NCBI RefSeq assembly: GCF_020177375.1
Contig: NZ_JAIWHV010000023.1
Location: 1 to 62,638, forward strand
Direction: 5' to 3'
DNA: 62,638 bases
Source: Saliphagus infecundisoli
Lineage (GTDB): Archaea; Halobacteriota; Halobacteria; Halobacteriales; Natrialbaceae
Shown here: in pieces, positions 6,048 to 61,712 of the stretch
Layout: each line of letters begins with the position of its first letter
Numbering within the stretch: position 1 is the stretch's first letter
Notes under the pieces: model-generated
What the model was told of the DNA's origin: nothing
The model's database searches: none
The model's input: only the letters and a program-made list of their open reading frames with translations
Program-made: the position numbers and the translations under genes

Positions 6048-8317
6048 TCGGCAGTCGCTCCTTCTTCTACGACCCCGCCTGTGTCACCGTTTTCGACGGC
6101 GAAGTCAGTGTTGACACCCTCGCCGGAGAGGAGCTGACTCGCGAAGCTGTTGGCCAGCACCGCCGACACGGACAGCACCATCGCAATCATCGCGAACACG
6201 GGGTGGACGAGGCCAGTCGTCGCCGCCGCGACACCAATACCGTTGAACGAGAACGCTGCTACGAGATTTTGTCGAGTTTTCCGGTAGCTCTCTCGGCCGA
6301 TCTCGTGGGCGTCCATCACGCCGCCCAGCCGATCGCCCATCAGCACGATGTCGGCGGACTCGATGGCGATGTCCGTCCCCGCGCCGATAGCGATGCCGAT
6401 GTCGGCCTGCGTGAGTGCCGGGGCGTCGTTAATGCCGTCGCCAACCATCGCCACGCGGTGCCCTTCATCCTGCAGATGACCGATCTCCTCGCGCTTCTCG
6501 TCGGGCAGCACGTCGGCCATCACGCGGTCGATGCCTACCTCCTCGGCGACCGCTTCGGCGGTACGCGCGTTGTCACCGGTGATCATGACGGGCGTGATAC
6601 CGGTGTCGTGCATTCGCTGGACGGTCGCAGCGGCGTCGACCTTGATTTCATCGCCGATGCCGATCAGGCCCACAAGATCGCCGTCACGGACGACGCCCGA
6701 GACCGTGAGGCCGCGATGCTGGAGGCGCTCGATCTCAGCGGCCACACGCGAGAGATCGATGCCCTCGTCAGCGAGCCAGCCCGGCTTCCCCACGAGGACG
6801 TCGTCACCGTCGGCGGTTGCCCGGATGCCCTTGCCGGTGACAGAATCGAACGTCTCGGGGTCGGCGTATTCCACGCCACGCTCGTCGGCACACTCGAGAA
6901 TTGCGCCGGCGAGCGGATGTTCGGAGAACGCCTCTGCACCCGCTGCCGTCGCCAGCACCTCGGACTCAGCACCATCGAGTCCAACGACCTCGCTGACGGC
7001 GGGCTCGCCGACCGTGATGGTGCCTGTCTTGTCCAAGACCATGCGGTCGACGTCGGGGAAGATCTGGAAGGCGTCCCCGGAGCGCATCAGAATGCCGTGG
7101 TTTGCCGCCTTTCCGCCGCCGCGGATTAGGGCGAGCGGCGTCGCCATCCCGAGCGCACAGGGATACCCGAGGACGAGAACGGCCAGCGCCGCGAAGGCAC
7201 CGCGCTGAACGTTCGGGCTGGCATCCCACGTGAACGGCGTGACCAGCCAGAACAGGAAGGCCAGCGCGGCGATGGTCAAAACGGTGGGGACGAAGTACCG
7301 CAGAACGCGGTCGGCGAGTTGAATGATCCCGGGTTTCATTGCTCGCGCTTCTTCAATCTCGTGAGCGACCTGATTCAGAAACGCGTCCTCGCCGGTCTCG
7401 GTGACTTCGACCAACAGCGTGCTGGTCTCGTTGACGCTGCCACCGATCACCTCGTCGCCTGCAGATTTCTCCTCGGGGATGGACTCGCCGGTGGCAACCG
7501 ACTCATCGACGGTTGATTTGCCGTCGACGACCTCGCCGTCGACGGGGATGTTCTCACCGGGTTTGACGCGGACGCGGTCGCCGACATCAAGATCGTCGAC
7601 CGGGACTTCCTTGGCGCCGTCCTCGGTGATGCGGCGTGCGGTGTCCGGTTGGAGGTCGAGGAGGCTCTGGACGGCCTGCGACGCTCGCGTACGGACGATG
7701 AGGCTGGTATACTCCGAGAGAATGTGATAGGTGGTGATGAATACGGAGACGGCGAAGAAGTGGACGGTCGGGAACCCCGGAAAGACGGACAGACCGAGGA
7801 ATCCGCCGAGCAACCCGGCGAAGGCGCCCGCCTCCAACAGGACGTGCTGGTTGAGGATGCCCCGACGAAGGCTCTGATAGGCCTTCTCCTTGATGTAGCG
7901 GCCGGGGCCGAACATCGTTCCAAGGGCCAGCGTGAGCGCACCGAGATCCATCGCCAGCGATTCGGACTCGAAACGGCCCATCACGACTATCATCCAACCC
8001 ATCAACGCGGCGACGACGATAGAGGCGCTCCCCGCGAGGACGAGCCGACGCTTACCGTCGGCGAGTTCGGCCTGCTGCTCTTCGTACCGCTTCTCCTTGT
8101 CCGGGTCGCGGATCGAGTAACCGAGGTCGCGGAGCGTGTCCTTCACTTCGACCTCGTCGATGCGGTCGTCGTCGTACTGGACGAGTACCTCCTCGTGGGC
8201 GAGGCTCACATCGACGTCCTCAACCCCGTCGGTGCGGTGGTATGCCTTCTCGATGCTCTCCGCGCAGAACGAGCAAGACATTCCGCCGACGTTGAACTGT
8301 TTCTGTGTCGTTCCCAT
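6044..8317 (-). CDS. Heavy-metal P1B-type ATPase with YPC motif
   Basis: A 757-residue efflux ATPase. It has an N-terminal HMA domain (GMSCSFC at 12-18), membrane segments, the actuator TGES at 277-280, the phosphorylation site DKTGT at 429-433, SEHP further on, and GDGINDAPAL near the C-terminus. The membrane metal site, CPC in copper pumps, reads YPC (385-387, in LGYPCALGMATPL). This is a distinct subgroup whose ion I cannot state; its place beside merA suggests a thiophilic metal such as Hg, Cu or Cd. It is divergent from the ArsR-like regulator at 8451. Confidence 0.9.
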   Translation of the reverse strand: MGTTQKQFNVGGMSCSFCAESIEKAYHRTDGVEDVDVSLAHEEVLVQYDDDRIDEVEVKDTLRDLGYSIRDPDKEKRYEEQQAELADGKRRLVLAGSASIVVAALMGWMIVVMGRFESESLAMDLGALTLALGTMFGPGRYIKEKAYQSLRRGILNQHVLLEAGAFAGLLGGFLGLSVFPGFPTVHFFAVSVFITTYHILSEYTSLIVRTRASQAVQSLLDLQPDTARRITEDGAKEVPVDDLDVGDRVRVKPGENIPVDGEVVDGKSTVDESVATGESIPEEKSAGDEVIGGSVNETSTLLVEVTETGEDAFLNQVAHEIEEARAMKPGIIQLADRVLRYFVPTVLTIAALAFLFWLVTPFTWDASPNVQRGAFAALAVLVLGYPCALGMATPLALIRGGGKAANHGILMRSGDAFQIFPDVDRMVLDKTGTITVGEPAVSEVVGLDGAESEVLATAAGAEAFSEHPLAGAILECADERGVEYADPETFDSVTGKGIRATADGDDVLVGKPGWLADEGIDLSRVAAEIERLQHRGLTVSGVVRDGDLVGLIGIGDEIKVDAAATVQRMHDTGITPVMITGDNARTAEAVAEEVGIDRVMADVLPDEKREEIGHLQDEGHRVAMVGDGINDAPALTQADIGIAIGAGTDIAIESADIVLMGDRLGGVMDAHEIGRESYRKTRQNLVAAFSFNGIGVAAATTGLVHPVFAMIAMVLSVSAVLANSFASQLLSGEGVNTDFAVENGDTGGVVEEGATAD

Positions 8318-18936: not shown

Positions 18937-21399
18937 TCATTGAAGCAACGATCGCGAGGAGTTCGTGACGACCAGCAGGCTACTGGCCCCCATCGCGAGA
19001 GCGGCGAACAAGGGGTTGAGCAGTCCGGTTATCGCCAGCGGGATCGCGACCGCATTGTAACAGAATGCCCAGCCGATGTTGCCTTTGACCCGGCGATCAG
19101 TCGCGCGTGCGAGTTCGAAGACGGTATCGACCGACGAGAGATCGTCATCTACGAGTGCGACGTCGGCGGCGTCCGCGGCCATTGCGGTTCCGCCGCCCAG
19201 TGCGATCCCGAGGTCCGATGCCGCGAGCGCCGGCGCATCGTTGGTGCCGTCGCCGACCATCACCGTCCGTCCCGTCTGCTTGAGGCGCTCGACAGTCTCA
19301 GCCTTTCCCTCGGGAGGGACGCCGGCAAACACACGGGAGATCGACGGATCGTCCCGAAACTGGCCCGCAGCACGGGCGTCGTCACCGGTGAGCACGACGA
19401 CCTCGGTGTCGGTCGCTGCGATCGCCGACAGCGTCTCCGACCAGTCTTCCCGGAGGTCGTCGCCGACGACAATTACGCCCTCGGCAGTCCCGTTTCGACC
19501 AACGGCGACCGGCACGCGCCCTGCCTCGCGGCTCTCGGCGATCCGCCCCACGATCCCCTCGGGGACTGTCCACCCTCGCTCGCGAAACAGGTCCGGATGG
19601 CCGACGACGACCTCCTTGCCGTCTATGACCCCGGAGACACCGTTTCGATGGCTCTCGAAAGACTCGATGCCGTCGGTGCAGTCGGCCTCCGTCGTGTCGG
19701 TCTCCCTGGCCCCTTCCATCTCACCCACTGTCGATGCCGGCTCGACCGTTCCTCCGTCGGCGAGCCGGCGCTCGGCGGCGATCGCCCGGCCGACCGGATG
19801 GGCCGACCGCGACTCGAGCCTGGCGGCCAGAGAGAGCAACTCGTCGCCGAGGTCGGTTTCGACGACGGTCATCTCGCCGGTGGTCAGGGTGCCGGTCTTG
19901 TCAAAGACGACGGTGTCGGCCTCGCGGATGCGCTCGAAGACGGTGTCGTCGAAGACGACGATTGAGCGCTCCAGGGCGTCCCTGATCCCGGCGGCGACCG
20001 CGAGTGGCGTCGCCAGCCCGAGCGCACACGGACAAGAGACGATCAATACGGTGAGTCCGACGAGTAAGGCGTCGGTGACCCCGGCGCCCGTTGCGAGGTA
20101 GACTGCGGTGACGACGACCGAGAGCGCGAGGACGAGCGGGACGAAGATCGTCGCGAGCTTGTCGGCGAGCTTCTGGATCCCATGGCTTGAACTCTGGAGG
20201 TCCCAGACGAGTTCGGTCACCCGGTCCAAGCTGCTCGTTGCGTCCTCGCCGACCCGGACGGTGACCGCGCCGTCGGTCACCAGTGAGCCACCGACGACGG
20301 GGTCGCCGACACTTTTGCCAACAGGCAATGACTCGCCGGTGACGACTGCCTCGTCGATCGCGACCTCACCGGAGACGACCTCGCCGTCAATGGGCACGCG
20401 TTCGCCCGCACGAACCAGCACGCGGTCGCCCGGTTCGAGGTCGTCGACAGCGACCTCGACGTGGCTCCCGTCAGCCTCGATACGGCGGGCATCATCGATT
20501 CGGACGGCCGTGAGATCGGAGAGCCGTTCGGTCGCCTGCTCCTTGATCGTCGACTCGTAGTAGTTGCCCACCGAAACGATGACGATGATCGCGACGGTGA
20601 CGTCGTAGTAGACGTGGTTGCCACCGACGGCGATCGACAATGTGCTGTAGAGGTAGGCGCTGACGGCCGCGATCGCGACAAGCAGGTCCATGTTCGGCGA
20701 GCGGGTCTTCGCGGCGACGTAGGCTCCCTGGAGGATCGGCTTGCCAGTAACGCCCAAGATGATCGTCGTCATCGCGGCGATGGTGAGATAGAACGGTGTT
20801 GCGAGGTCACTCGCAAGTGTCTGTGTGAAGAACTCGGTCGTCCGCTCGTCGTAGAGCAGCCCCCCGAAGTAGGTAGGGTAGATGATGAGAACGTACTGCA
20901 ACATGACGGTCATTCCCATGAGCACGCCGACGATGACCCGCCCGATCATCCAGTTGTCGGCCTTGCGGCGGCTGACCGCGTCGTCGCGAGAATAGGCGCT
21001 GTAGCCGAGCCCGCTGATCGCCTCCTGAAGCTCAGTCTCAGAGACGAGGTCGGGATCGTGGTCGATCCGGACCGTATCCGTCACGTAGCTCGAATCGGCG
21101 TTGCTCACGCCCTCGGTTGCGACCGCGGCCGACTCGATGAACGCCTCGCAGGTCGCACAGTGCATCCCGTCGACCTCGAGATAGGTCGCCTCGTGGTCGT
21201 CGGGGACCTCCCGCTCGGTCCCCTCCGAGCGTTCGCGACGGACATCCTCGGCCCCGACGTCCTCGACATCCCCGAGGGCGGCGTGGACGTCCCGACAGCC
21301 CACACAACAGAAGCGGTTCCCTTCGTCGTCGGTGACGTCGCTCCCTGTAACGGGGAGTTCACACAGCGTACAGCCGGCGGCGTTTACGTGATCAGTCAT
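18937..21399 (-). CDS. CcoI/FixI-type copper P1B ATPase
   Basis: An 820-residue copper transporter. The N-terminus has a Cys-rich metal-binding domain (CTLCELP and RFCCVGC, 10-36) and an HMA domain with GMHCATC (CATC 81-84). Membrane helices carry SCPCALGLATP (CPC near 460), DKTGT and GDGTNDAPALA follow, and the protein ends in SSRSLLQ. The Cys-rich head plus HMA is typical of pumps that feed copper to cytochrome oxidase assembly. It overlaps the next gene by 4 bases (ATGA), and that gene encodes the usual DsbD/UreH-like partner. Confidence 0.92.
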   Translation of the reverse strand: MTDHVNAAGCTLCELPVTGSDVTDDEGNRFCCVGCRDVHAALGDVEDVGAEDVRRERSEGTEREVPDDHEATYLEVDGMHCATCEAFIESAAVATEGVSNADSSYVTDTVRIDHDPDLVSETELQEAISGLGYSAYSRDDAVSRRKADNWMIGRVIVGVLMGMTVMLQYVLIIYPTYFGGLLYDERTTEFFTQTLASDLATPFYLTIAAMTTIILGVTGKPILQGAYVAAKTRSPNMDLLVAIAAVSAYLYSTLSIAVGGNHVYYDVTVAIIVIVSVGNYYESTIKEQATERLSDLTAVRIDDARRIEADGSHVEVAVDDLEPGDRVLVRAGERVPIDGEVVSGEVAIDEAVVTGESLPVGKSVGDPVVGGSLVTDGAVTVRVGEDATSSLDRVTELVWDLQSSSHGIQKLADKLATIFVPLVLALSVVVTAVYLATGAGVTDALLVGLTVLIVSCPCALGLATPLAVAAGIRDALERSIVVFDDTVFERIREADTVVFDKTGTLTTGEMTVVETDLGDELLSLAARLESRSAHPVGRAIAAERRLADGGTVEPASTVGEMEGARETDTTEADCTDGIESFESHRNGVSGVIDGKEVVVGHPDLFRERGWTVPEGIVGRIAESREAGRVPVAVGRNGTAEGVIVVGDDLREDWSETLSAIAATDTEVVVLTGDDARAAGQFRDDPSISRVFAGVPPEGKAETVERLKQTGRTVMVGDGTNDAPALAASDLGIALGGGTAMAADAADVALVDDDLSSVDTVFELARATDRRVKGNIGWAFCYNAVAIPLAITGLLNPLFAALAMGASSLLVVTNSSRSLLQ

Positions 21400-28548: not shown

Positions 28549-30927
28549 TCAGCGATCCAGCAGGCCGGTATCCAGCGTCGGGCCCTTCCGCTTGCCGCCG
28601 AAGAACCGGCCGCCGGCGGTGAGCAGGTAGAGGACCCCGAGCCCAAGGAGGTAGGTGAAGGCGAGGGGGAATGCGAGCAGGAGCATTGTCAGGATCCCAG
28701 AGGGGCTGGCGAAGGCCGCGGCGGTGAATATCGCGACGATGACGACCCGCCAGCCTTTGAGCATCGTCCGGTAGGGGACGAGCCCGCCGACGTGGAACAG
28801 CATCATCGTGACGACGATGTTAAACAGGAAGCCGATGCCGATGGTGGTGAAGATCACCATCCAGCTGAAGTGTTTGATCCGGTAGGAGATCACCATCCCA
28901 GCGTCGATCGAATCGGAGATTAGGTACGAGATCACCGAGGGGGCGATCCAGAAGAACCCAAGGAAGGTTCCGAGCGCGAAGCCGGCGATCAAGGCGCCGC
29001 CCCAGACGATGAACACTCGGCGGTCGCCCCGAGCCAGCCCGCGTTCTTTCAGCGCCGGCCAGGCGTAGTAGAGGATCAGCGGGAGGACGGCGATGATCCC
29101 CGCGATCACGCTCACCTTCACCTCGAAGATCAGCACCTCGACAGGGTGGAGGGCGATGACGAAGTCGCCCTGCTGGATCAGCGTCTGGGTGTCGGCAGTC
29201 GGCGAGATATCGGTTCCCTGGAGTTCCGCCAGCGAGACCAGCAACTCGTGGGGCACGTTCGAGACGAACGCCTCGAGGATGATCCCGAGTCCGCCGGAGT
29301 AAAGCCCCATGAACACTCCGCCCATCACGACCATGAACAGGCCGACGATGCGGAACATCCGCGAGGTGAGACTCTGGAAGATGAAGGCAATGTCGTAGGC
29401 GTAGCCGCCGATGTCCTCCTCGGTCGTCTCTTCCTCGGTAAAGGAGTTCACGATGTCGGCGGCGGTACTCGAGAAGACGTTGTCCTCCTCCTCCTCGTCG
29501 GGAGCGGGTGCTCCCTCGCCCCCGCCGCCAGCGGCCCCGGCGTCGTCCGCGGTCGCGGAGGCGTCGCCGGTGGCGGCCGTGCCTGCAGCGCCGACCTCCC
29601 CTTCGGCGGTCGGCCCCTCGTCCTCGGCGTGGAGGGTATCGAACCGGTCCAAGATCGCCTGGGCCTTCTCGCGGTCGTCGTCGAACATCGCCTGGCGGGC
29701 GTGGTCCATCGCCTCCTCCTCGTCCATCTCGAGGAACGCCTGTGGCGGGACGGCGTCGATCGCGTCGGCATCGAGGACGTCGATGCCGATCTCCTCGGGC
29801 TCGCCGGTCCGGATCTGGTCGATCCGGGGGTGGACCGGCTCCTGGAGCACCTTGATCGTGTAGGCAAAGAGCGCGAGGAAGCCGATGACGCCGGCGACGA
29901 GCAGGCCCGCCAGGAGCGCACCCGCAGTGCCGTACTCGGCGCCGAGGGTCTCGAGGGCGGTCGGCCCGCCCGGCCGGATCGCCCCGGGGAGGAGGGGATA
30001 GAGTTCGTCCTCGAGGACGTCGAAGCCGCCGAAGGCGACGAAGCCGGCAACGGCGATCCAGACCGCACCGAGGGTCCCGCCGGCTTGGAGCGCCCGCTTC
30101 CGGAGCAGGCTGGTGCCGCCGATCGCCTCGGCGGCGCCCCGCCTGCGGGTGTTGGTCAGCAGTTTCGCGAGCCCGAGGCTGAAGGCGTAGAGGACGGTCA
30201 GTGGGATCATCCACATGACCAGCGTGAAGGGGTCTGGCGGCGAGAACAAGGCGCCGAAGACGGCGATGGCGACGATGGAGTGGCGCCACTTGTCCCGGAA
30301 GGTCTCGTAGGGGACGATTTCGGTATAGGCGAGCGCGCCCATGAAGAGGGGAAGCTGGGCGGCAAGCCCGAAGGAGATGGTGAGCAACGCCATGAACTCG
30401 GTGAACTCGGTGATCCCGAAGTTGGGATTGACGCCCGCGCTGTCGGCATTGCCCGCGAGGAACTCGAAGGCAAACGGAAAGAAGACGACGTAGGCGTAGA
30501 CGATCCCGACGCAGAAAAGCCCCAGCGCGGTCACGACGAAGCCGACGATCGATGCCTTCGAGATCGGGATCGCCGACTCGTATCCCCGCTCCCTGATCGG
30601 TTCCCGAGCGAAGTAGAGGACAGCGGGGATCGAGAGGATTGCGCCGACGATCATTCCGATCTTCGCCTGCAATAGGAGGACCTCGAACGGCGTTCGGGTG
30701 ATGACGTCGGTCTGCCCGGCGAGCTGGCTCGACATCTCTGCTTCCGCCGTCGCCTTGAGGAACTCCCAGACGTAGATCCGGAGGGCGTAAAAGGAGCCGA
30801 TGAAGCCGATGACGAAGACGATGAAGATCTTCTGAAGATGGTTCTGTGCGATCGAGAGCACCTCGGCGATCGTCTGCCTACCGCTGTCGATCGCCCGGAG
30901 GGCGTCTTCGTCGACGGCGGAGCTCAT
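28549..30927 (-). CDS. tatCt: Fused double TatC translocase (TatCt type)
   Basis: A 792-residue protein with two TatC domains in one chain. Domain 1 spans about 1-290 (starts near QNHLQKIFIVFVIGFIGSFY, with PFEVLLLQAKIGMIVG and TEFMALLTISFGLAAQLPLF). A charged linker follows (about 390-500: Ala/Glu/Asp/Gly-rich, cytoplasmic), then domain 2 (HPVEVLIFEVKVSVIAGIIA). Such fusions are typical of haloarchaea, which export many proteins by the Tat route; several neighbours here have Tat signals. The partner tatCo gene, often divergent and adjacent, is not in this window. High-GC, regular haloarchaeal codon use. Confidence 0.9.
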   Translation of the reverse strand: MSSAVDEDALRAIDSGRQTIAEVLSIAQNHLQKIFIVFVIGFIGSFYALRIYVWEFLKATAEAEMSSQLAGQTDVITRTPFEVLLLQAKIGMIVGAILSIPAVLYFAREPIRERGYESAIPISKASIVGFVVTALGLFCVGIVYAYVVFFPFAFEFLAGNADSAGVNPNFGITEFTEFMALLTISFGLAAQLPLFMGALAYTEIVPYETFRDKWRHSIVAIAVFGALFSPPDPFTLVMWMIPLTVLYAFSLGLAKLLTNTRRRGAAEAIGGTSLLRKRALQAGGTLGAVWIAVAGFVAFGGFDVLEDELYPLLPGAIRPGGPTALETLGAEYGTAGALLAGLLVAGVIGFLALFAYTIKVLQEPVHPRIDQIRTGEPEEIGIDVLDADAIDAVPPQAFLEMDEEEAMDHARQAMFDDDREKAQAILDRFDTLHAEDEGPTAEGEVGAAGTAATGDASATADDAGAAGGGGEGAPAPDEEEEDNVFSSTAADIVNSFTEEETTEEDIGGYAYDIAFIFQSLTSRMFRIVGLFMVVMGGVFMGLYSGGLGIILEAFVSNVPHELLVSLAELQGTDISPTADTQTLIQQGDFVIALHPVEVLIFEVKVSVIAGIIAVLPLILYYAWPALKERGLARGDRRVFIVWGGALIAGFALGTFLGFFWIAPSVISYLISDSIDAGMVISYRIKHFSWMVIFTTIGIGFLFNIVVTMMLFHVGGLVPYRTMLKGWRVVIVAIFTAAAFASPSGILTMLLLAFPLAFTYLLGLGVLYLLTAGGRFFGGKRKGPTLDTGLLDR

Positions 30928-33161: not shown

Positions 33162-35687
33162 TCATCTCTTGTCATCGGGGAGCAACCGACGAGAGCTATT
33201 CACACCAATTAAGCCAGCAGAGACAATCGCGGCAAATATCACAGTTACGGGATTTAGAAGGCCAATGATTGCAATCGGAATGGTGATCGCATTGTAGCAG
33301 AGTGCGAGCGCGTTGTTCTGCCGGACCCGTGAGCGCGCGGCGTGTGCTAATTCGAACGCAGTCTCGACGGATCCGAGGTCGTCCGTCGAGATCGCTATAT
33401 CGGCGGCATCAGCTGCAAGTGCCGTTCCGCTTCCTAGTGAGATTCCAAGATCTGCTACCGCGAGTGCCGGAGCGTCGTTGGTTCCGTCGCCGACCATAGC
33501 GACGTTGCGATCGTTTGCCAGCCGACGGATTGTCTCTGTCTTTCCTGCTGGGGGAACGCCTGCAAACACCTGATCGACGGCTGTATGTCGGTCGAAGAAC
33601 TCTGCCGCCTCTGCGTCGTCGCCGGTCAGGACGACCACGTCGACGCCGCGCTCGTCAAGTTGGTTGAGGGTCTCCTCCCAGTCCTCGCGTGGTTCGTCTC
33701 CGACAATCACGACGCCTTCGGCTTGGCCATCGCGGCCTACGATAACTGGCAGATGACCGAATCCGCGGGCCTGTTTGACACGCTGTTCGATCTCTTCACT
33801 CACTCTCCAATCCTCTGCAGCGAACAGGTCTAGTGAACCGACTGCAACTGATCGGCCGGTGACTGTCCCAGTGATCCCGGTCGCATGACTCGAAAACTCC
33901 GAAACGGGATCACTCTCTGGCTCCGCGATTGTATCGGGGGCCCCATCGGTTTGCATCGGATCGGTTTGGTCTTCGGAACGACCGAATGCGGCGACAATGG
34001 CTTCAGCTGCTGGGTGTGATGCTCGACGCTCCAGCATAGCGACGTCCTGGAGAAGGTCCGCCGGCGCATTAGCCTCGAGCACTTCCATTGAACCCGTCGT
34101 CAGCGTCCCAGTTTTGTCGAAAACCACTACGTCGATTTCACGGAGCCGTTCGAAGATCGTTTCGTCGAAGACGATGATGCCATGCTCCATCATCATACGA
34201 AGACAGCTGGCGACCGAGAGGGGTGTTGCAAGTCCCAGCGCCCATGGAGAGGTGACCAAGAATACGCCGAGCATTGCGAGGACCGTACTTGCAACTGAAC
34301 CGGTCGAGACGTAAATGCCGGCCCCAGTGCCGAGCGCCGCAAGAACGAGGACCGGAGCGACAAATGTGGCCATCCGATCTGCACGCCGCTGGATCCTGTG
34401 ATCCGTACTCTGGATGTTCCACACGGACTGCATGATTCGGTCGATACTACTTGTCCGCGCTTCATTGACTTCGACGAGCGCAGCATCGTTTGTGACAATC
34501 GATCCTCCGAGGACGTCCTCACCAGGGGATCGCCTGACTGGAACCGACTCGCCGGTTACGATCGATTCGTCAACGGTACAGGCCTGATCGACTAGCGTTC
34601 CGTCGACGGGAATCCGCTCTCCCGTGCGGACCAACACACGATCACCTGCCGTCACCTCCTCGACGGGGACGACGTGTGTCGTCCCGTCGTCGCTGTAGCG
34701 TCGTGCCTCGTCGACCTGAGAGACTGTGAGGTCCGTAAGACGTTCGAGCGCACGCTGCTTGATCGATGTTTCATAAAAGGCAGCACCGGTGACAGCTGCA
34801 GCGACGACCAACGTGAGGTCAAAGAATACGTCATTCTCACCGGCGATGATCGCGGCTGCACTGTACAGGTACGCACTGCAGACGGTAAACGCGACGAGAA
34901 GATCCGTATTCGGCTGCTTAGTCCGAAGGCTGGCGTATGCTCCACGCAGTACCGGCAGTCCCGTGAACAGCAACACAAGTCCTGTGAGACCGAGGTAGAG
35001 ACGTAGGAAGAGAGCACCTGAAGACCCCTGGAGTTGGAAGGAGTTCTCATAGAGTTCGAGGAACGTCGTATCAACCATATCCGCCAGGTGGGCAGGATAC
35101 ACGAGGACGGCGTAGGGGAGAAGAAGAAATGCCCCAAACAGGACGCCAGCCGCATAGCGAAAGCTGAGAAACTCATCTGACCGACGTTTACGCATTCCCT
35201 CCATCTCTCTAGAGCGGAGTGGGGCGTCCGCCTCGGCCTGGCGAGAACCCGCAGCGTCGCCTCGTAGGTATGCGTCGTAGCCGAGCGTGCTGAGCGCGTC
35301 TATGAGGTCCTGCTGGGTTACGTGGTTATCGTGCTCCACACGCACGGTCTCGGTGACATAGCTGGCCGTCGCGTCGGCTACTCCGTCTAGTGCCATTGCC
35401 CGGGACTCAAGGTACTCCTCGCAGGTCGCTGAGTGCATCCCGTCAACCCGGAAGAAGGTCTGGTCTCGGTGGTTCGACTCCCCGGGTGGCGAACTCTCGG
35501 TCGCTGCTGGAGACGTTTCGGAACAATCCGAGCCCTTGGCCTGGATCGGTCCGTCAAGTGTCTCGTCAATCTCGCGGCAGCCCTGCGAGCAGTACCACTC
35601 GTCGGACGGAGCGTCCGCAATTCCTGACGCAAAGTCGATTGTCCGACCACATAGCTCGCAGGTGGCATTGGGATGTGTGTCGTCCAT
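33162..35687 (-). CDS. FixI-like P1B ATPase with lost copper ligands
   Basis: An 841-residue paralogue of the gene at 18937. The layout is the same: a Cys-rich head (CELCGR, YCSQGC), an HMA domain, eight helices, TGES, DKTGT, GDGTNDAPALA and an SSRRLLP end. Two metal sites differ. The HMA motif GMHCATC reads GMHSATC, and the membrane CPC reads SPW (480-482, TSPWALGLATP). Catalytic ATPase motifs are intact, so it is not simply decayed. It may move another substrate or act as a regulator. The start at 35687 is an ATG; a GTG at 35702 is possible. Confidence 0.9.
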   Translation of the reverse strand: MDDTHPNATCELCGRTIDFASGIADAPSDEWYCSQGCREIDETLDGPIQAKGSDCSETSPAATESSPPGESNHRDQTFFRVDGMHSATCEEYLESRAMALDGVADATASYVTETVRVEHDNHVTQQDLIDALSTLGYDAYLRGDAAGSRQAEADAPLRSREMEGMRKRRSDEFLSFRYAAGVLFGAFLLLPYAVLVYPAHLADMVDTTFLELYENSFQLQGSSGALFLRLYLGLTGLVLLFTGLPVLRGAYASLRTKQPNTDLLVAFTVCSAYLYSAAAIIAGENDVFFDLTLVVAAAVTGAAFYETSIKQRALERLTDLTVSQVDEARRYSDDGTTHVVPVEEVTAGDRVLVRTGERIPVDGTLVDQACTVDESIVTGESVPVRRSPGEDVLGGSIVTNDAALVEVNEARTSSIDRIMQSVWNIQSTDHRIQRRADRMATFVAPVLVLAALGTGAGIYVSTGSVASTVLAMLGVFLVTSPWALGLATPLSVASCLRMMMEHGIIVFDETIFERLREIDVVVFDKTGTLTTGSMEVLEANAPADLLQDVAMLERRASHPAAEAIVAAFGRSEDQTDPMQTDGAPDTIAEPESDPVSEFSSHATGITGTVTGRSVAVGSLDLFAAEDWRVSEEIEQRVKQARGFGHLPVIVGRDGQAEGVVIVGDEPREDWEETLNQLDERGVDVVVLTGDDAEAAEFFDRHTAVDQVFAGVPPAGKTETIRRLANDRNVAMVGDGTNDAPALAVADLGISLGSGTALAADAADIAISTDDLGSVETAFELAHAARSRVRQNNALALCYNAITIPIAIIGLLNPVTVIFAAIVSAGLIGVNSSRRLLPDDKR

Positions 35688-35771
35688 CGGTGAGGTTCGC
35701 ACGTGTGTCGTTCTCAGAGATGGGTACGGAAACGTGTTTCCGACGCGGGTCAGCCGGGCCTATCCGAGACA

Positions 35772-36452: not shown

Positions 36453-36885
36453 CGTATGAGGCTCAGGGCGGAGTGGCATAGGCTTGGATGAACTTCGTTG
36501 CCTGGTGATTCCTGTCTGGTGACAGGACGTGCATCGTCTATGCAAGCCGTCAAGCATATCGATAGCTCAGGATGGCGAGTTGTACGCCATCATTGTTCGA
36601 TAGACTCGCGAGTGGGACGATTATGGGCTAATTCAGGAAGGACCGACACCGACCCTGTATACGAATCTCTCGCCGACGCTGAAGATCCGTATCATCGATC
36701 GATGGCACCAAATCGTGAACTCGAACGCCGGATATATCGATAACTCAAACTGAGTCCAGAAGCGTATTCTCCAGTCACGTCCTGTCGGCTTTCTACCGGC
36801 TCCTGATCAACCCAGAGGGAGGGCCTGTCCGACTGTTCGGTGCAGATTCAGCAGATAGATCCGTTTGGAAGAGAACCGTTCAACA
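36453..36885. other. Intergenic region with no clear gene
   Basis: A plus-strand frame at 36498-36743 is open but has no acidic bias or motif and is probably chance. A remnant cannot be excluded. Confidence 0.35.
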
Positions 36886-38100
36886 ATGGCCCAGGATCGC
36901 TTCCGAGTGCGGGCATCCGGTGACTACACGCAGTCGCGATCAACAAGGTTCGTCGGCGCCACCGGAAAACTCGCCGTCCTGTTAGTTGTATTGCTCCAGA
37001 TCCCAGTCGTAACGGCGCACGGTGAGGCAGAGTCGACGGCACTGAGTCAGTCTCATGGTCTGGCTGCAATTTTCGTGGGGCTGGCCCTCGTCGGCGGCGC
37101 AGTTGCGCTAAAGCGCACCGAACGGATCACCCCGACGACGGCGCTCTACGCTGCCTTTGCCGGTCTCGCCGTCGTCACGATCGGAGCAATGGTGTTTGAC
37201 GGACTCGCACCTGACGCGTCCTACAGCGCCAGTACGATGCCGATCCCCCGCTCGTGGTATCCGCCGATGGCCTTGTTAACCGGCGTCGGAATCGCGGTTG
37301 TCAGTTTCGTCGTCGGGTGGCTCAAATGGCCAGGCCGACCGCGGTACACGTCCCTCGGAATCCTGATCGGACTTTGGGTCGCGTACCCGACGTTGATTCC
37401 CGGCCCTGCCAGCACGACGAACCCGCTGGGGTACGTGATCGTGCTCGCCACGCCCGTACTCCTAGGATACATCGTCTGGAAAGATGCGCAGGATGGGATC
37501 CGTGTCGCGTTGCACGACGCGACAGCCCGTCGGTTTGGAATCGGCGTCGGATTCCTCCTCGCCATGTACTTCTCGGCGCTGAGCGGCTATCTGACGTTCT
37601 TCCCGAGTGAGGGATCACCTCACCACACGATCGTGTCAATCGAAACCGTCCAGTACCAGCTCGTTCAATGGCCAACCCTCGAGGTATTCCTCCCACAGGT
37701 TCCGTTCTTTGTCGCCGTATCAATCGGATCAGTCGTCCTCGTCGGTAGCCTAAGTACACTCGTCGGGCTCAACGCCGCGCTGATTGCCTACCAGTGGCGA
37801 TCTGAGCGCGTCGCGATCGCCGGAACCACCGAGGGAACGGCCGGAACGAGCGCCATTGTCGGCTCCTGTGCGTGTGGCTGCTGCGGACCGATCGTTGCCC
37901 AAGTTGTCGTACTCGTTGCTGGGCCGTCGATCGCGGCGCCGCTCTACTGGGTGTTCGTCGACTCAAAGTCTCCGTTCACGATGCTCTTCCTGGTGGCGAG
38001 CATTGGGCTCTTCACAGGTGGGCTAGTCTACGCGACGAAGCAAGCAAGCGATTTCGGGGCCCCTGTAACCAGTTCACCAGCCGCTGTCAATGACGGATGA
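36886..38100 (+). CDS. Multi-pass membrane protein with CACGCC cluster
   Basis: A 404-residue protein starting at the ATG 36886. There is a signal-like first helix, then a short loop with His (TAHGEAESTALSQSHG), and eight to ten further helices. Near residue 330 is SCACGCCGPIVAQVVVLVAG, four Cys at the start of a helix, with a Pro as in metal-transport motifs. No family is recognised. Surrounding copper, Sco and Dsb genes suggest metal or heme delivery, but this is inference only. Confidence 0.75.
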   Translation: MAQDRFRVRASGDYTQSRSTRFVGATGKLAVLLVVLLQIPVVTAHGEAESTALSQSHGLAAIFVGLALVGGAVALKRTERITPTTALYAAFAGLAVVTIGAMVFDGLAPDASYSASTMPIPRSWYPPMALLTGVGIAVVSFVVGWLKWPGRPRYTSLGILIGLWVAYPTLIPGPASTTNPLGYVIVLATPVLLGYIVWKDAQDGIRVALHDATARRFGIGVGFLLAMYFSALSGYLTFFPSEGSPHHTIVSIETVQYQLVQWPTLEVFLPQVPFFVAVSIGSVVLVGSLSTLVGLNAALIAYQWRSERVAIAGTTEGTAGTSAIVGSCACGCCGPIVAQVVVLVAGPSIAAPLYWVFVDSKSPFTMLFLVASIGLFTGGLVYATKQASDFGAPVTSSPAAVNDG

Positions 38101-38710: not shown

Positions 38711-39439
38711 TTACATCCCGCCTGTCGCCGTCAGGTATGCGCTCGCAAACTGTACCGCATTGTACGCACCGTGAATCACGGCCGGAACAGCGAGGTTATC
38801 GGTGTACTCGTATGTTGCGCCCAGTGCCAGGGCGAGAACGAATGCGATACCGACATACACCAGCTTCCCTTCACCGGACAGCGAAAAGAGATGAATCGAC
38901 GCGAAGAGGACGCTCGCAAGAACGATTGCATAGGCCGGATGCAGTGTTTCTCGGAGCGTACCCTGAACCAGTCCCCGGTATAACAGTTCCTCTCCCGGAC
39001 CGACTAGCAGAAACGAGAGAGGAACGAGCAGTAGAAATACTGCTGGATTCTGATGACCAATCGTCACGATCTGATTTTGTGCCGACTCGAGTCCGAGCAA
39101 AGAGATGATCGTCGACGCGATTACGAGCAGGCCTAGGAGCGTAACTATTCCGGCGATGGTCACGGCAACATCTCGCCTGTCCGGAATCGTAACCGGGACG
39201 AAGTCGAAGCCGAGATCGCGGAATCTGAGATAGAGGACAGCGACCCCCCCGAACGTTACTCCTTGCAACAGGACTGTACTCAACACGAGACGCAACGATG
39301 GACGAGCTGTGACATCGATTCCGAATACGGCCAGAAGTATGGCAGCGACGGTAATGACGACCGATCCGATGATTGTGGAGCCGTACGTGAGTCCTATCGC
39401 ACTCACAACTGAGCGGACTGGTGAAGTTGATTCCGTCAT
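38711..39439 (-). CDS. CPBP-family intramembrane metalloprotease
   Basis: A 242-residue, eight-helix protein starting at 39439. It has the CPBP/Abi motifs: GPGEELLYRGLVQG (EEXXXR-type Glu pair), SIHLFSLSGEG and VIHGAYNAVQF with the zinc-binding His. Members cleave proteins within the membrane or confer bacteriocin immunity. No link to neighbours is visible. Confidence 0.85.
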   Translation of the reverse strand: MTESTSPVRSVVSAIGLTYGSTIIGSVVITVAAILLAVFGIDVTARPSLRLVLSTVLLQGVTFGGVAVLYLRFRDLGFDFVPVTIPDRRDVAVTIAGIVTLLGLLVIASTIISLLGLESAQNQIVTIGHQNPAVFLLLVPLSFLLVGPGEELLYRGLVQGTLRETLHPAYAIVLASVLFASIHLFSLSGEGKLVYVGIAFVLALALGATYEYTDNLAVPAVIHGAYNAVQFASAYLTATGGM

Positions 39440-39530
39440 TTGAAGGAACTGATAACGGAGCGGTCTGTACAAGCTATACGCGAAGCTTCGATAGTTCGTC
39501 GTGTTGTCGAATTGTTATTGAGTTTTATCA

Positions 39531-39965
39531 TTAGTTGTGGCGTCTTGTTTCGTTCCGCCTCACAGCCATCCTCGACCAGCTGAGCCCTGCGGCTATGACG
39601 AGCATGAATGCGAGAAGTGAGAGGTTCGGAATCGTCAGTCCAAATATCGGCGCCTGCCATTGGACAGCAGCACACGATCCATCGAAAGAACAGGTGGTTG
39701 TCGTCGCCTGCAGTACTGAGTGATAAGCTGCGGTTACTCCACCGAGGACTGAAAGCGGGATAACAGTCCGCCAGACTGCAGGACGGGCTTCGATCGTTGC
39801 GACACCGAGGACGACGACTAGCGGGTACATCAGAATTCGTTGGTACCAACAGAGGTCACACGGTACCAGTCCGAGACCGAGGCTAAACCAGAGACTTCCA
39901 GCTGTCGCGATCGCGACGACGAGTGTTGCACTGCCCAATACGAGCCGGACTCGGTCATGACCCAT
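39531..39965 (-). CDS. dsbB: DsbB-type disulfide-forming membrane protein
   Basis: A 144-residue, four-helix protein with the DsbB pair CDLCWYQRILMYP and a second extracytoplasmic pair, CSFDGSC. It passes electrons from DsbA to quinones. Its ATG at 39965 overlaps the end of the DsbA-like gene by 11 bases, so the two are an operon. The frame could also start at 40007. Confidence 0.88.
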   Translation of the reverse strand: MGHDRVRLVLGSATLVVAIATAGSLWFSLGLGLVPCDLCWYQRILMYPLVVVLGVATIEARPAVWRTVIPLSVLGGVTAAYHSVLQATTTTCSFDGSCAAVQWQAPIFGLTIPNLSLLAFMLVIAAGLSWSRMAVRRNETRRHN

Positions 39966-40698
39966 TTGCGAGTTGTTCGATGAAGGTACGGATTCGTTGT
40001 TCGTCACTCAGCGGGTTGACCATTTCGCCATCGATTATGAGTGCGGGGGTTCCCGAAATGCCGGCGTCGGCTGCTGCCTGACTCGTCTCCCGAATCGGTG
40101 ATTCGTAGGCCTGCTCCTGAATCTTCGTTCGGAACTGTCCCGTCTCCGTTACTCCGGCCTCCTCAGCGAATGAAACGAGTTTGTCAGTGGTAGCCCACGT
40201 CTCACTCTCGGGTGGTTGATTGGCGAATACGTATTCATGATATCGCCAGTAGGTTTCAGGATCCACGTTCCAGGCTGCGAGCCCAGCTTGAGCAGCACGG
40301 GGGGCATCAGAGCCGAGGAAAGGTTCACCGTCAATATAGGCTAACGAGCGGAATTGTAAGCTAATGTCACCGGGCTCAACGTAGTCTGTGACGATATCGC
40401 CGAGGAAACCCGTGCTGAAGTCCGCACAGTACGGACATTTCCAGTTTCCATAGTAGGTCACAGTCGGTTGATCGGCTGACCCCGTCATCGCATACGTGGC
40501 TGACGCGGGGTCGTCTGGGACCGGCGCGTTTGCTACTGGGCCATCTACATCAGTATTTGATGACTCATTGTTTTCGCCACCGAGACATCCACTGAGTGCG
40601 ACTACTCCACTCGTCGCGAGGAACCGGCGTCGCGTTAGCAGTCCACGTTCTTCACCCAATGGCGTGAACAGGGTCGAGATGCGTTCGCTATCGGTCAT
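39955..40698 (-). CDS. DsbA-like thioredoxin-fold lipoprotein
   Basis: A 247-residue protein. It has a Tat plus lipobox signal (LTRRRFLATSGVVALSGC) and a thioredoxin fold with KCPYCADFS as the redox site, plus cis-Pro in ISGTPALIIDG. It forms or shuffles disulfides in exported proteins with DsbB. Many Cys-bearing copper proteins nearby (Sco, cupredoxins) are plausible clients. It lies 10 bases after the broken heme A synthase on the same strand. Confidence 0.88.
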   Translation of the reverse strand: MTDSERISTLFTPLGEERGLLTRRRFLATSGVVALSGCLGGENNESSNTDVDGPVANAPVPDDPASATYAMTGSADQPTVTYYGNWKCPYCADFSTGFLGDIVTDYVEPGDISLQFRSLAYIDGEPFLGSDAPRAAQAGLAAWNVDPETYWRYHEYVFANQPPESETWATTDKLVSFAEEAGVTETGQFRTKIQEQAYESPIRETSQAAADAGISGTPALIIDGEMVNPLSDEQRIRTFIEQLANGS

Positions 40699-40708
40699 GC
40701 TTCTTCAA

Positions 40709-41247
40709 TCATACTGTGGGTTTCTGAACTCGTCTGTTACGAAGGTAGGCCGTGAGTACGGTTGTGAGCAGGCTGAGGAGAATGAGAGTGGTGACTCCGA
40801 GGTGCGTTGTGATGATTATCGGTTTGAGGTTCTCTGTGATAGTCAGTCCTCCGAGTAAGACCTGAACTGGAAGCAAGACGAGTGCCGTTGTTGCGGACCA
40901 TTTGACTAGTGTATCGTCTGGATAGACGATCCACAATCCAACTGCTGTCCCCGCGATGAAGAGGCCAGCAGTCATCGCAAGTCCCCGGTGCGCCCATTCG
41001 GCGAATATCTGGAGGGCAGAATATGGAGAATTTGCGATGATGTCGGGTTGGAGGAAAAGCACCCAGGTGCCATAGCAGGTCGGCCAGTCGGGGCAGAAAA
41101 GTCCGCACCGATTGCACTCGTATAGGCGCCGAGAAGCATCACGATATACACCAGAACCAGCGTCAGGCTGGCGATGTGCTCGTACTCCACTGGAGTTTCT
41201 GAAATCGTCCTTTGCAGGTAGTTCGAGTTCGTTGACTTTTGAGCCAT
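40709..41247 (-). pseudogene. ctaA: Half-size heme A synthase with frameshift
   Basis: From the ATG at 41247 (MAQKSTNSNYLQRTISETPV) the first frame reads one helix to YTSAIGAD. The next frame then reads FCPDWPTCYG and three more helices (EWAHRGLAMTAGLFIAGTAV, then THLGVTTLILLSLLTTVLTA). The join is at the AAAA run 41097-41100; 539 bases is one short of a multiple of three. The restored 179-residue, four-helix protein with CxxxxxC is like archaeal half-size CtaA, which makes heme A for cytochrome oxidase. It is either inactivated or a homopolymer sequencing error. Confidence 0.7.
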
Positions 41248-41423
41248 ATATCGGTTGGTGGGGAGATCCCAAATTACAATGTGGCTTGTTGAAGCGATGG
41301 TGACAAAAGTATAGGTCGGATTCCCATCGAATGGGATTCCGCCATCTATTCATTGTGGAGTCATCCCACAGCATTGTTAAGAAGACCCACGATTTGCTGG
41401 GAGATTACCTACGTACGAAGTTT

Positions 41424-42386
41424 ATGAGACATCAAGGACAAACCCACGAACGGTCGTCAGATAGTCGCGAGCGGGACTCAGAGTCTGTTGAGGGTGAAAC
41501 GTGTCCCGAGTGTCAAGGCCAAATCACCCAGGATGGTGACCGGGGTGAAGCGGCTTGTGAGAGCTGTGGATTGATTTTCGAGGAGAGCCGGGTCGACCAC
41601 GGTCCTGAATGGCGCGCGTTCATGTCGGACGAACGTGATGAAAAGAGCCGCGTTGGTGCCCCGACAACGCAGCTGATACACGACAAGGGACTGAGTACGA
41701 CGATTGGCTGGCAGGACAGGGACGCCTACGGACAGGCGGTTTCCGGTCGCAAACGCGCTCAGTTGCAGCGCCTTCGAACGTGGGACGAGCGGTTCCGGAC
41801 GAAAGATGCCCACGAGCGGAATCTCAGGCAAGCGCTCGGTGAAATTAGCCGCATGGCGTCTGCTCTCGGGCTTCCGGAATCGATTCAGGAAACCGCCGGT
41901 GTTCTGTACAGGCGTGCTGTAGAAGAGAATCTACTGCCTGGTCGCTCGATTGAGGGAATGTCGACGGCTTCGTTGTATGCGGCTGCCCGACAGCACGGAA
42001 TGCCACGGCCGTTGACGGAATTTGCCGACGTGAGCCGTGTCGAAAAAACCCGGATCCAACGAGCATACCGATATCTTTCCCGTGAACTTGGGTTGGAAAT
42101 CGAGCCGGAAAATCCGACTCAATATCTTCCACAATTCGCGTCATCGCTTGACGTGAGCGACGAAGCAGAACGGCGCTCTCGGGAACTTCTTGAGGTGGCA
42201 ACAGATAATGCCGTCCACAGTGGGAAGAGTCCAGCAGGATTGGCGGCCGCCGCTCTATATGCTGCGACCTGTCTCACGAACGAGCAGATCACACAGGAGA
42301 CGATAAGTGAGGTCGCCCACGTCAGTCAAGTAACGATCCGAAACCGATATCAGGAGCTTCTCGAGGTGTACGCGGAGCATGACTGA
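41424..42386 (+). CDS. tfb: Transcription initiation factor TFB
   Basis: A 320-residue TFIIB homologue. The zinc ribbon is CPECQGQITQDGDRGEAACE plus SC (about 26-48), a B-finger stretch follows (EWRAFMSDERDEKSRVGAP), and two cyclin repeats span about 110-310 (IEGMSTASLYAAARQHGMPR; SPAGLAAAALYAATCLTNEQ). It recruits RNA polymerase to TATA/BRE promoters. Haloarchaea have many TFBs; an island-borne one may serve the accessory genes. Start at 41424; the frame from 41331 adds an atypical leader. Confidence 0.93.
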   Translation: MRHQGQTHERSSDSRERDSESVEGETCPECQGQITQDGDRGEAACESCGLIFEESRVDHGPEWRAFMSDERDEKSRVGAPTTQLIHDKGLSTTIGWQDRDAYGQAVSGRKRAQLQRLRTWDERFRTKDAHERNLRQALGEISRMASALGLPESIQETAGVLYRRAVEENLLPGRSIEGMSTASLYAAARQHGMPRPLTEFADVSRVEKTRIQRAYRYLSRELGLEIEPENPTQYLPQFASSLDVSDEAERRSRELLEVATDNAVHSGKSPAGLAAAALYAATCLTNEQITQETISEVAHVSQVTIRNRYQELLEVYAEHD

Positions 42387-54553: not shown

Positions 54554-56319
54554 CTTGGAGTTCACTGACCCTCGTGTCTTTATCCTCAGGCAAGACTTCA
54601 GCAAAGACGGTATCAATGCCAAGTTCGTCGGCGGCTGCATTGGCAATATCCTCCGAGTCACCGGTTAGCATCGCCACATCCATTCCCAACTCGTGAAGCG
54701 CGTCCACGACCTGGTAGCTTTCCTCGCGGATGATGTCAGTAAGGGCGAAGGCAGCAACCGGTTCGCCCTCTTGAATGAGGTACTACTGTTTGTGTGTTCT
54801 CACCGGCTTCTTGGGCGAATTCAACAAGGATCAATGGAACGTCGCTGTCGAGTTGAGAGAGGAGATTAGGACCGCCGACATAGATCTCTTACCATCGATC
54901 GTTGCTCGAACACCACGGCCCTTGAGTGCCTCGAAGTTCGTGGCATTCTGTGCTGAGACCTCACGCTCGGTTGCCGCATTGCGGATGGCGTTCGGAATCG
55001 CCTTCGGCGCCAGCAGCGAGGGAGAGTGCCTCCTCTGCGGTAAGGGCATCCACGGTCGTTATATCCACGACACCCTGCTCACCTTCAGTGAGCGTCCTGT
55101 TTTGTCAAAAATCACTGTATCGAGTTCACGGGCTTGCTCCATGGCAACCCGATCACGGATGAGCATCCCGTTCCTAGCCGCCAACGACGTATTGATGGCG
55201 ACCACCAGCGGAATGGCGAGTCCCAATGCATGCGGACAGGAGATTACTAATACAGTGACAGCTCGTTCGATGACGGAGGCGCCAAATGTTATCGCGAACG
55301 TCCACACGATAACAGTGATAGCAGCGGACGCCACTGCGATGTAGAAGAGCTAACCTGCCGCACGATCCGCGAGAATCTGGGTTTGAAACTTACTCTGCTG
55401 GACTTCCTCAACGAGACGCATAATCCCGGCGAGGACCGTTTCCTCACCCGTGGCAGTAATCCGGACTCGAAGACTTCCGTCACCGTTAATGGTCCCTCCG
55501 ATTACTTCGTCACCAGGATCTTTGAACATCGGGCACGATTCGCCGGTGATCATTGACGTCGGACTTGCCTTCCTCGACGACGCCATCGGCAGGGACGCTC
55601 GCACCTGGACGAACAAGGACGAGGTCCCCTTCCGCTAAATCGGAAACGGGCACCTCTTCAGTCTCACCGTTGGTGATTCGTTCGGCTGTGTCGGGCATGA
55701 GCTGGGCTAGCTCATCGAGCGCGCTCGAGGCACGGCGAACGCTGCGCATCTCGATCCAATGCCCTAACAGCATAATATCTATCAGGGTCGCCAATTCCCA
55801 GAAAAACGCCGTTCTGCCGGGGAAAAGTACGGTCGAAAGACTGTAAATAAACGCAACGGTAATCGCCATCGAAATCAGCGTCATCATCCCAGGCGCTCGG
55901 TCCCGCAGTTCAGGGACAGCCATCCGGAGGAACGAAATGCCGCCGTATGCGAAGACGATTACCGCAAAAACAGGGTTGATTCACTCACTGCCGGGGAACG
56001 CTGGGACCGTGAACCCGAGCCGCTCTTGGAGCGTCTCACTGTAGAGTAATACTGGAAGTGAGAGCAAAAGATAGATGAAAAATCGCTGCCGGAACATCTC
56101 CTTATATCCTGCATACATTCCCATCCCTTCGTGATCGCCATGGCCATTCCCGTGGCCGTGGTCCGCATGGTCATCGTGCCGGTCGTGTTTTTCCTCTACC
56201 TCCTGACGCGTTTGATGTGTTTCAGCCTCCTCTTCAAGTAGTGACTGCTCCTGTGGCTCCGGCTTCTGATCGTCTCGGCCGACGCGCTCATTATCCGTAG
56301 TATGCTCCTGGTCTGATCG
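54554..56319 (-). pseudogene. copB: Decayed CopB-type P1B ATPase
   Basis: Pieces in several frames restore one ATPase: a His-rich N-terminus (HDRHDDHADHGHGNGHGDHE, about 56110-56190), LLSLPVLLYSETLQERLGF, a stop in GSE-stop-INPVF, [56 protein letters not shown] (CPH motif), IFDKTG, and MLTGDSEDIANAAADELGID. At least one in-frame stop and several frameshifts are seen, and the hinge GDGxNDAP part is missing at the IS630 junction. CPH pumps of the CopB class export Cu or Ag. Clearly non-functional. Confidence 0.85.
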
Positions 56320-59807: not shown

Positions 59808-61712
59808 ATGAGCGAGACCGACGACACAGAGGAAAGCCATACGCAGTGGAGTGGGTCATGGTATAGCTTCCCTCCAATCCGAAATGCGCTCATCGCAGCC
59901 GGGATTGTGCTTCTCACATTCACATTCAGTCGCATTTACTCCCTGCCATTGGTGGCAGAGAACGGGCTGTACGCGATAGCGATGCTGATCGGTGGATTCC
60001 ACTGGGCGCAAGAGGGAATCGAGGAACTGGTCGGTGAGTTCGAGATCGATATCGAAATTCTGATGTTAGCCGCAACCGCCGGTGCAGCCTTTCTTGGCCT
60101 CTGGGAAGAGGCAGCGTTCCTCGTCATTCTCTATGGCGGTGCGGAAGGCGTCGAGGAATACACGTTCGCACGAACGCGAGCGTCGATCCGAAGCCTACTT
60201 GATCTCGCGCCCGAAGAGGCGCGGCTCATCATGGACGGAAGCTCACAGATGGTCCCCGCACGGGAGCTCAACGTGGGTGATGTCTTCCGCGTCAAACCTG
60301 GCGAATCGATCCCAACCGATGGCCGGGTTATCGATGGGCGTTCGACTGTCGATCAGGCAGCGGTCACCGGTGAATCCACTGCCGTCGATAAGCAAGAGGA
60401 TGACCAGGTGTTTGCCGGTACTGTCAATCAGGAGGGTGTCCTCGATATTGAAGCGACCACGACGTTCGAGGATAACACGCTCTCGCAGATGATCCATCTC
60501 GTCGAGGAGGCCCAGGAAGAAAAGGGGAAATCACAACTCTTCATCGAGAAGTTCGGCGGCGTCTATTCACCCGTCGTTCTCCTGGCCGCGGTCGGACTTA
60601 TGCTTGCGCCGTTCGCCATTGCGTTCCCGGACTACTGGACGAGGCGGGCAATTGTTCTGCTCGTCGCGGCTGCACCCTGCGCTCTGGTCATGTCGACGCC
60701 GATTGCGATTGCATCAGGTATCGGGCGAGCTGGCCGAGAGGGAGTCCTCGTCAAGGGCGGGATTCACCTCGAAAACTTGGGGAAAGTTGAGGCGATCGCC
60801 TTCGACAAGACCGGCACCCTTACTCGGGGCACGCCGGCGGTCACGGACGTTGTCGCATTCGAGGGAACCGAAGACGACGTACTCGGGCGAGCAGCGAGCG
60901 TCGAACAGTATTCCGAACACCATCTCGGGGAAGCGATCATGGAGGCCGCCGCTGAACGCGGACTCGAACAGACCGAGATTTCCGAGTTCAGCTCGATCAC
61001 CGGCTACGGGGCGCAAGCACAACTCATGGAGGAGACCGTGTACGTCGGGAAACCAGGGCTATTCGAGCGATTTGAACTCGACGTCGATGGGATTGCTGCA
61101 GTCGAGCAACTTCAAAACGAAGGGAAGACGGTCGTGCTCGTTGGGACCCAATCCCGAATTATGGGCGTCATCGCCCTCCGTGATGAGCCGCGTCCCGAGG
61201 CGAAGGACGTCATCCGTGAGCTTCACGACATGGGCGTAGAGGTCCTCATGCTCACGGGGGACAACGAGCAAACAGCGCAGGCAATTGCGTCAGAGCTCGG
61301 GATCGACGATGTACGGGCGGATCTGAAACCCGAAGAGAAGGTCGAAGCGGTCAAAGAACTCACAGCGACGTACGAGGCAGTCGGAATGGTCGGTGACGGC
61401 ATCAACGACGCCCCGGCACTGGCCCAGGCAACGGTTGGGATCGCTATGGGAACTGCGGGAACGGATGCCGCGATCGAAGCGGCTGATATCGCATTGATGG
61501 CGGATGATATCACGAAGGTCACGTACGCACTTCGACTCGGTAAGCGGGCACAGCGGATTAGCCGCGAGAACATCGTGTTTTCGCTGCTCGTGTTAGCCGC
61601 GCTCATTCCCGCTGCGTTGCTCGGTGTGATCGGAATCGCCATTGCCGTCGTCGCTCACGAGGGTTCTGAACTGCTGGCGATTGGAAACGGACTTCGGGTG
61701 AGACGAGGCTGA
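59808..61712 (+). CDS. P1B ATPase with APC motif (Zn/Cd/Co class)
   Basis: A 634-residue exporter without N-terminal metal domains. It has TGES near 187-190, the membrane motif AAPCALVMSTP (APC 289-291), DKTGT near 334, SEHH in place of SEHP, GDGINDAPALAQATVGIAMG, and the C-terminal helix VAHEGSELLAIGNGLRVRR. The HEGS end and the lack of HMA domains are features of P1B-4-like pumps (Co, Zn, Cd); the APC replaces the usual SPC or CPC. Probably co-transcribed with the CoA-ligase-like gene 13 bases downstream. Confidence 0.9.
   Translation: MSETDDTEESHTQWSGSWYSFPPIRNALIAAGIVLLTFTFSRIYSLPLVAENGLYAIAMLIGGFHWAQEGIEELVGEFEIDIEILMLAATAGAAFLGLWEEAAFLVILYGGAEGVEEYTFARTRASIRSLLDLAPEEARLIMDGSSQMVPARELNVGDVFRVKPGESIPTDGRVIDGRSTVDQAAVTGESTAVDKQEDDQVFAGTVNQEGVLDIEATTTFEDNTLSQMIHLVEEAQEEKGKSQLFIEKFGGVYSPVVLLAAVGLMLAPFAIAFPDYWTRRAIVLLVAAAPCALVMSTPIAIASGIGRAGREGVLVKGGIHLENLGKVEAIAFDKTGTLTRGTPAVTDVVAFEGTEDDVLGRAASVEQYSEHHLGEAIMEAAAERGLEQTEISEFSSITGYGAQAQLMEETVYVGKPGLFERFELDVDGIAAVEQLQNEGKTVVLVGTQSRIMGVIALRDEPRPEAKDVIRELHDMGVEVLMLTGDNEQTAQAIASELGIDDVRADLKPEEKVEAVKELTATYEAVGMVGDGINDAPALAQATVGIAMGTAGTDAAIEAADIALMADDITKVTYALRLGKRAQRISRENIVFSLLVLAALIPAALLGVIGIAIAVVAHEGSELLAIGNGLRVRRG

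Follow-up and report, generated by a model that had tools for sequence, protein, structure and literature searches.

A haloarchaeal PW subfamily of P1B ATPases with retained ATPase residues and a lost copper path

The usual view of P-type ATPases is that ATP hydrolysis is coupled to the binding of an ion or lipid. The window analysed here, a 62,638-nucleotide stretch of Saliphagus infecundisoli DNA, carries a gene for a P1B ATPase in which the membrane CPC motif reads SPW, and the question is whether such a protein is a dying copper pump, a pump for another substrate or an ATPase with a different job. Our results showed that in this protein and its relatives, referred to as PW proteins, the ATPase residues are retained, the copper path is lost and one Trp is fixed at the second Cys of CPC. 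The PW protein is probably working, with a new job, and not a dying pump, because this form recurs in roughly a third of the haloarchaeal species searched and is kept by selection.

The gene and its altered metal sites

Pfam domains E1-E2_ATPase, Hydrolase and HMA were found in the 841-aa protein (Table 1). The earlier note, made from the sequence, had read SPW for CPC and HSATC for HCATC with TGES, DKTGT and GDGTNDAP kept, and all of these readings were confirmed. The ligand loss that it described at two sites is real at both and goes further, the second Cys of CCxGC, the entry Met, the M6 Met and the second Ser being lost as well. C10, C13, C33, C37 and C89 of the N-terminal region stay in the PW group, whereas C86 of the HMA site (present in 12/118 proteins) and C34, the second Cys of CCxGC (11/110), are mostly lost. 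Cys370 of the A domain, which all PW proteins share, is a candidate for a redox or structural role.

Table 1. Features of the PW gene and of the compared loci in the window
Feature	Position	Strand	Remark
PW-type P1B ATPase gene	33162..35702	-	GTG start 35702, or ATG 35687 giving 841 aa
C10-x2-C13, first half of N-terminal Cys cluster	35649..35660	-	retained
C33 S34 Q G C37 (CSQGC)	35577..35591	-	CCxGC in CPC paralogues; remaining two Cys retained
HMA domain, residues 79-138	35274..35453	-	Pfam PF00403, E 1.8e-9
HSATC at HMA metal site, residues 85-89	35421..35435	-	CxxC changed to SxxC
MA-MB helices	35082..35192	-	PW-specific Y178, F184, F187, L189, P191
Cys370, A domain	34578..34580	-	invariant in PW; nearly always Ala/Gly in CPC
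TGES actuator loop, residues 378-381	34545..34556	-	intact; G379-E380 in 118/118
SPW replacing CPC in M4, residues 480-482	34242..34250	-	W482 in 118/118
DKTGT phosphorylation motif, residues 524-528	34104..34118	-	intact
GDGTNDAP hinge motif, residues 733-740	33468..33491	-	intact
YN of M5	33291..33296	-	AfCopA Y682/N683; retained
M6 region, AIVSA	33216..33230	-	MxxSS in CPC pumps
Intact CPC paralogue (HCATC, CPC, YN, MxxSS), for comparison	18937..21399	-	neighbours SCO1/SenC, blue copper, DsbD_2
411-aa membrane protein, nearest upstream gene	36865..38100	+	no Pfam family; linked to plasmid-type PW genes
Shared island: CAAX protease, DsbB, DsbA-like, CtaA/COX15, TFB	38711..42386		

The Cu+ ligand residues of AfCopA, as named in Salustros 2022 (PMC9433437), were located by counting along the alignment of the PW proteins to AfCopA. 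The C380 position is occupied by Ser in 86, Cys in 15, Thr in 10, Ala in 5 and Asn in 1 of the PW proteins, and the C382 position is Trp in all of them. The one Asn belongs to an NPW form (locus L166) with an intact HMA CxxC. The position of the entry residue M158 is mostly Thr (103; T261 in the window protein) and never Met (0/118). The M711 position has changed to Val, Ala or Leu (A820 in the window protein), with V, A, L, T, S, I and F among the residue types listed at 820 and no Met; that of S715 has changed to Gly, Ala or Thr (A824), Ser being lost in most PW proteins, and Ser is found at the S714 position in 25. The E205 equivalent is retained in 117/118 proteins, Y682 and N683 are retained (Tyr in 110, Phe in 4 and Asn in 114 of the 114 readable proteins), D336 is mostly retained, and so are the N-domain E/HP/G residues, TGE, DKTGT and TGD; Y798, N799, D290 and E306 are conserved across the group. 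Structure prediction, which the earlier note had proposed for the transport site, confirmed the P1B fold, but the AlphaFold model (mean pLDDT 70.7, pTM 0.58) is too weak for the geometry at the Trp.

Distribution, selection and regional rates

A scan of GTDB contigs gave 79 loci, about half of them with Ser, Cys, Thr or Ala before Pro-Trp. The search profile covered residues 172-310 only, with the motif outside it, and separated PW from CPC; 118 distinct proteins across all loci reached 135 bits with it. P481, W482, C370, G379, E380 and D524, none of which was used in choosing the proteins, are each present in all 118 of these haloarchaeal proteins, and chance is excluded for Pro-Trp because every homologue picked without using the motif has it. 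PW genes occur in 101 of the 292 haloarchaeal genomes searched and are near-universal in the window's own family (66/75 genomes), and the 124 genomes searched from other classes of the phylum gave no match to the PW profile at 1e-20. The tree of 81 proteins places all 37 PW rows together on a single side of one branch (SH-aLRT 100), adjacent to CPC proteins of haloarchaea; in this tree, which was built without bacterial FixI/CcoI, the group is nested among haloarchaeal proteins sharing the N-terminal Cys cluster and HMA. The PW proteins are a single-clade, selected, haloarchaeal subfamily of P1B ATPases. Our searches of the open-access literature found no description of the xPW group, and automatic labels such as 'copper/cation-translocating ATPase' are unsafe for it.

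The pairwise dN/dS of close PW genes ranged from 0.10 to 0.29 (median 0.164), which is no different from that of CPC genes (0.09-0.27, median 0.186). The earlier note had preferred a new function to simple decay, and would have given this up for a variant confined to this genome with relaxed selection over the gene; its preference is upheld, because the variant is widespread and selection across the gene is not relaxed.

The mean identities of the domains were compared at a matched overall identity of 0.55, and as the pairs share ancestry the values are descriptive and not a significance test. As compared to CPC proteins, PW proteins are less conserved in M3-M4 (0.46 versus 0.64) and M5-M6 (0.49 versus 0.67) and more conserved in the A domain (0.60 versus 0.56), HMA (0.58 versus 0.51) and MA-MB (0.54 versus 0.41). 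Conservation is thus reversed, M3-M4 and M5-M6 being the most conserved regions in CPC and the least conserved of the core in PW. The ML partition rates, PW versus CPC, agree with this profile for M3-M4 (1.13 versus 0.60), MA-MB (0.45 versus 0.74), the A domain (0.75 versus 1.11) and HMA, and for M5-M6 (0.90 versus 0.80) the agreement is weak, if any.

Because M3-M4 is relatively fast in PW and slow in CPC, the ligand positions 480, 820 and 824 drift, and constraint is tighter on the A domain, HMA and MA-MB, a role other than transport is favoured. As read from these sequences, PW proteins may be a P1B subfamily that is competent as an ATPase but not for Cu+ transport and has a regulatory or mechanical role, a reading for which we consider the balance to be even. 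The strongest alternative, which we regard as unlikely, is that the protein still pumps, W482 and YN forming a new site for a hard or divalent cation, a proton-coupled species or a hydrophobic molecule. The intact catalytic core, the purifying selection and the conserved W482 are in line with such a pump, conservation of Y798, N799, D290 and E306 is expected of it as well, and in P1B groups already known, changes from CPC to SPC or APC accompany an altered range of metals (PMC3922081). The 15 CPW members, which keep one membrane Cys, the small M5-M6 difference in ML rate, and the search for an obligate gene partner, which found none, also speak against the non-transport reading. However, a pump that had taken on another substrate would be expected to keep its site constant, and in PW proteins there is free variation at positions 480, 820, 823 and 824 and M3-M4 is relatively fast, opposite to the intact pumps; the pattern therefore fits loss of transport with retention of the cycle better. 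A new substrate is thus less likely than a regulatory or mechanical role, so that of the two new functions offered in the earlier note, a different substrate and a regulatory role, the rates favour the latter kind, neither being proven.

Paralogues and gene neighbourhood

The paralogy to the intact CPC pump of the window, which the earlier note had pointed out, is real (46% identity), but this pump is not the nearest paralogue. Two closer ones in the same genome, both PW, share 59% (SPW, contig 11) and 56% (CPW, contig 54) identity, and the genome has in all three PW genes (SPW, SPW, CPW) and three CPC genes of the same family. The window also encodes a P1B ATPase in which the motif is YPC (GYPCALGMAT) and the HMA CxxC is intact (6044-8317, minus strand), a form also found in other haloarchaeal loci, a 634-aa P1B ATPase with APC (AAPCALVMST) and without HMA (59808-61712, plus strand), and an ATPase remnant with an internal stop (55092-55959, minus strand), with intact pumps on the same contig.

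The island around the window gene holds blue copper proteins, cytochrome bd, TatC, CtaA, DsbA/DsbB, a CAAX protease, TFB and SCO. A 792-aa protein with two TatC stretches is encoded near the cytochrome bd genes (28549-30927, minus strand). On pCBA1229 and pNG600 the TFB-CtaA-Dsb-CAAX block likewise lies by PW genes, and other PW genes are adjoined by oxidase or copper genes. The copper/respiration island is absent around chromosomal copies, which are the rule in the home family; their neighbours are unrelated and vary, including MATE, phosphoribosyltransferase, sulfatase-like and peptide ABC genes (named from sequence), and were uninformative, and the second PW copy of the window's genome likewise lies among unrelated genes. 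Since chromosomal copies sit among unrelated genes, the core function does not include membership of the island. The 411-aa protein, which has an SCACGCCGP stretch and relatives in 60 of 292 haloarchaeal genomes, was considered as an obligate KdpA-like partner and rejected, since it is missing from 65 of the 66 home-family PW genomes and is a mere fragment in two other genomes with intact PW. No obligate gene partner was found, and the chromosomal PW neighbourhoods differ.

A more specific reading, in which the PW protein regulates the intact CPC paralogue or forms hetero-oligomers with it and tunes the delivery of copper to oxidases, appears improbable. A CPC paralogue is present in 92 of the 101 PW genomes, and outside the home family in 30/35 versus 111/182 genomes (odds ratio 3.8, p 0.006, kinship ignored), and the plasmid PW copies are located in respiration/copper islands; against this, nine PW genomes have no CPC match at the cut-off, where a more divergent copy is possible, and the chromosomal PW genes have no such surroundings.

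Function and relation to known P-type ATPases

The CPW members keep one membrane Cys, mostly with the HMA CxxC (9 of the 13 in which both N-terminal sites are readable), and could therefore retain some copper handling. That CPW carries Cu+ through this Cys and SPW is a residual weak copper pump is nevertheless very improbable, as CPW too lacks the entry Met, the second Cys, the M6 Met and the second Ser, and mutations in these motifs inactivate characterised pumps (PMC3922081). The losses of C480, C86 and C34 are associated by raw count (p 3e-8), the tree-aware independent pairs being too few to support a concerted loss. A decaying duplicate, which the ligand losses at several sites might suggest, is rejected in view of the open frame, the catalytic Asp and TGE in 118/118, a dN/dS like that of intact paralogues, the invariant W482 and the near-universal presence in one family.

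For the favoured non-transport role, the ancestor would be a haloarchaeal CopA2/FixI-like P1B ATPase in which Cu+ transport was lost once, at C482W, the ATPase cycle then being retained for a different job. The Trp may occupy the emptied ion cavity beside the retained Tyr-Asn of M5, and with the cavity filled in this way metal binding may no longer be required for phosphorylation. The E1-E2 cycle of the head would be coupled to HMA and the MA-MB platform, and these tightened parts may carry the new function. The protein would act as a switch, scaffold or regulator driven by ATP, for instance on copper or redox membrane proteins, and not as a pump. It is possible, and we suggest it tentatively, that the whole subfamily is a metal-independent, non-transporting ATP-driven switch with Trp replacing the ion in the membrane cavity. 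A natural, selected and widespread group with Trp in place of the ion site offers a direct test of an uncoupled cycle as a switch.

The PW protein passes the TIGR01525 heavy-metal P-type ATPase model (400 bits, cut-off 346) but falls below the cut-off of the TIGR01511 Cu-ATPase model (360.6 bits, cut-off 397), which the window CPC paralogue passes with 440, and with the kdpB model it reaches 150 bits, the cut-off there being 528. It has the features of the P1B superfamily (DKTGT, TGES, GDGxND, N-domain HP, MA-MB helices), and departs from P1B-1 by SPW in M4 (xPW in 118/118) and by the loss of MxxSS beside a retained YN, and from P1B-4 by SPW in place of SPC.

KdpB is a P-type ATPase that powers transport through another subunit, and it is also among the fold matches of the PW model, but unlike KdpB, PW has no conserved partner gene that we could find. 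The fold is similar to those of AfCopA and LpCopA (PDB 7r0g, 3rfu, 4bbj; Foldseek E 1e-36 to 1e-41) and the YN, E205 and D336 equivalents are shared, whereas those of M158, C380, C382, M711 and S715 are absent. Like CopA2/FixI/CcoI of P1B-1 (CcoI of Rhodobacter capsulatus, PMC8475189), PW proteins have an N-terminal metal-site region with HMA, the P1B topology and the catalytic core, and they are nested among CPC proteins of haloarchaea that are probably of this type; unlike these, they have xPW for CPC, a broken Asn-Met-Ser site in which Asn is kept, and a mostly broken HMA CxxC. An altered M4 motif is shared with P1B-4 (SPC) and the CPx variants (APC, CPH, CPS), but these keep Cys (or His/Ser) after Pro (PMC3922081), whereas PW proteins always have Trp there and probably lie in the Cu+/FixI-like branch.
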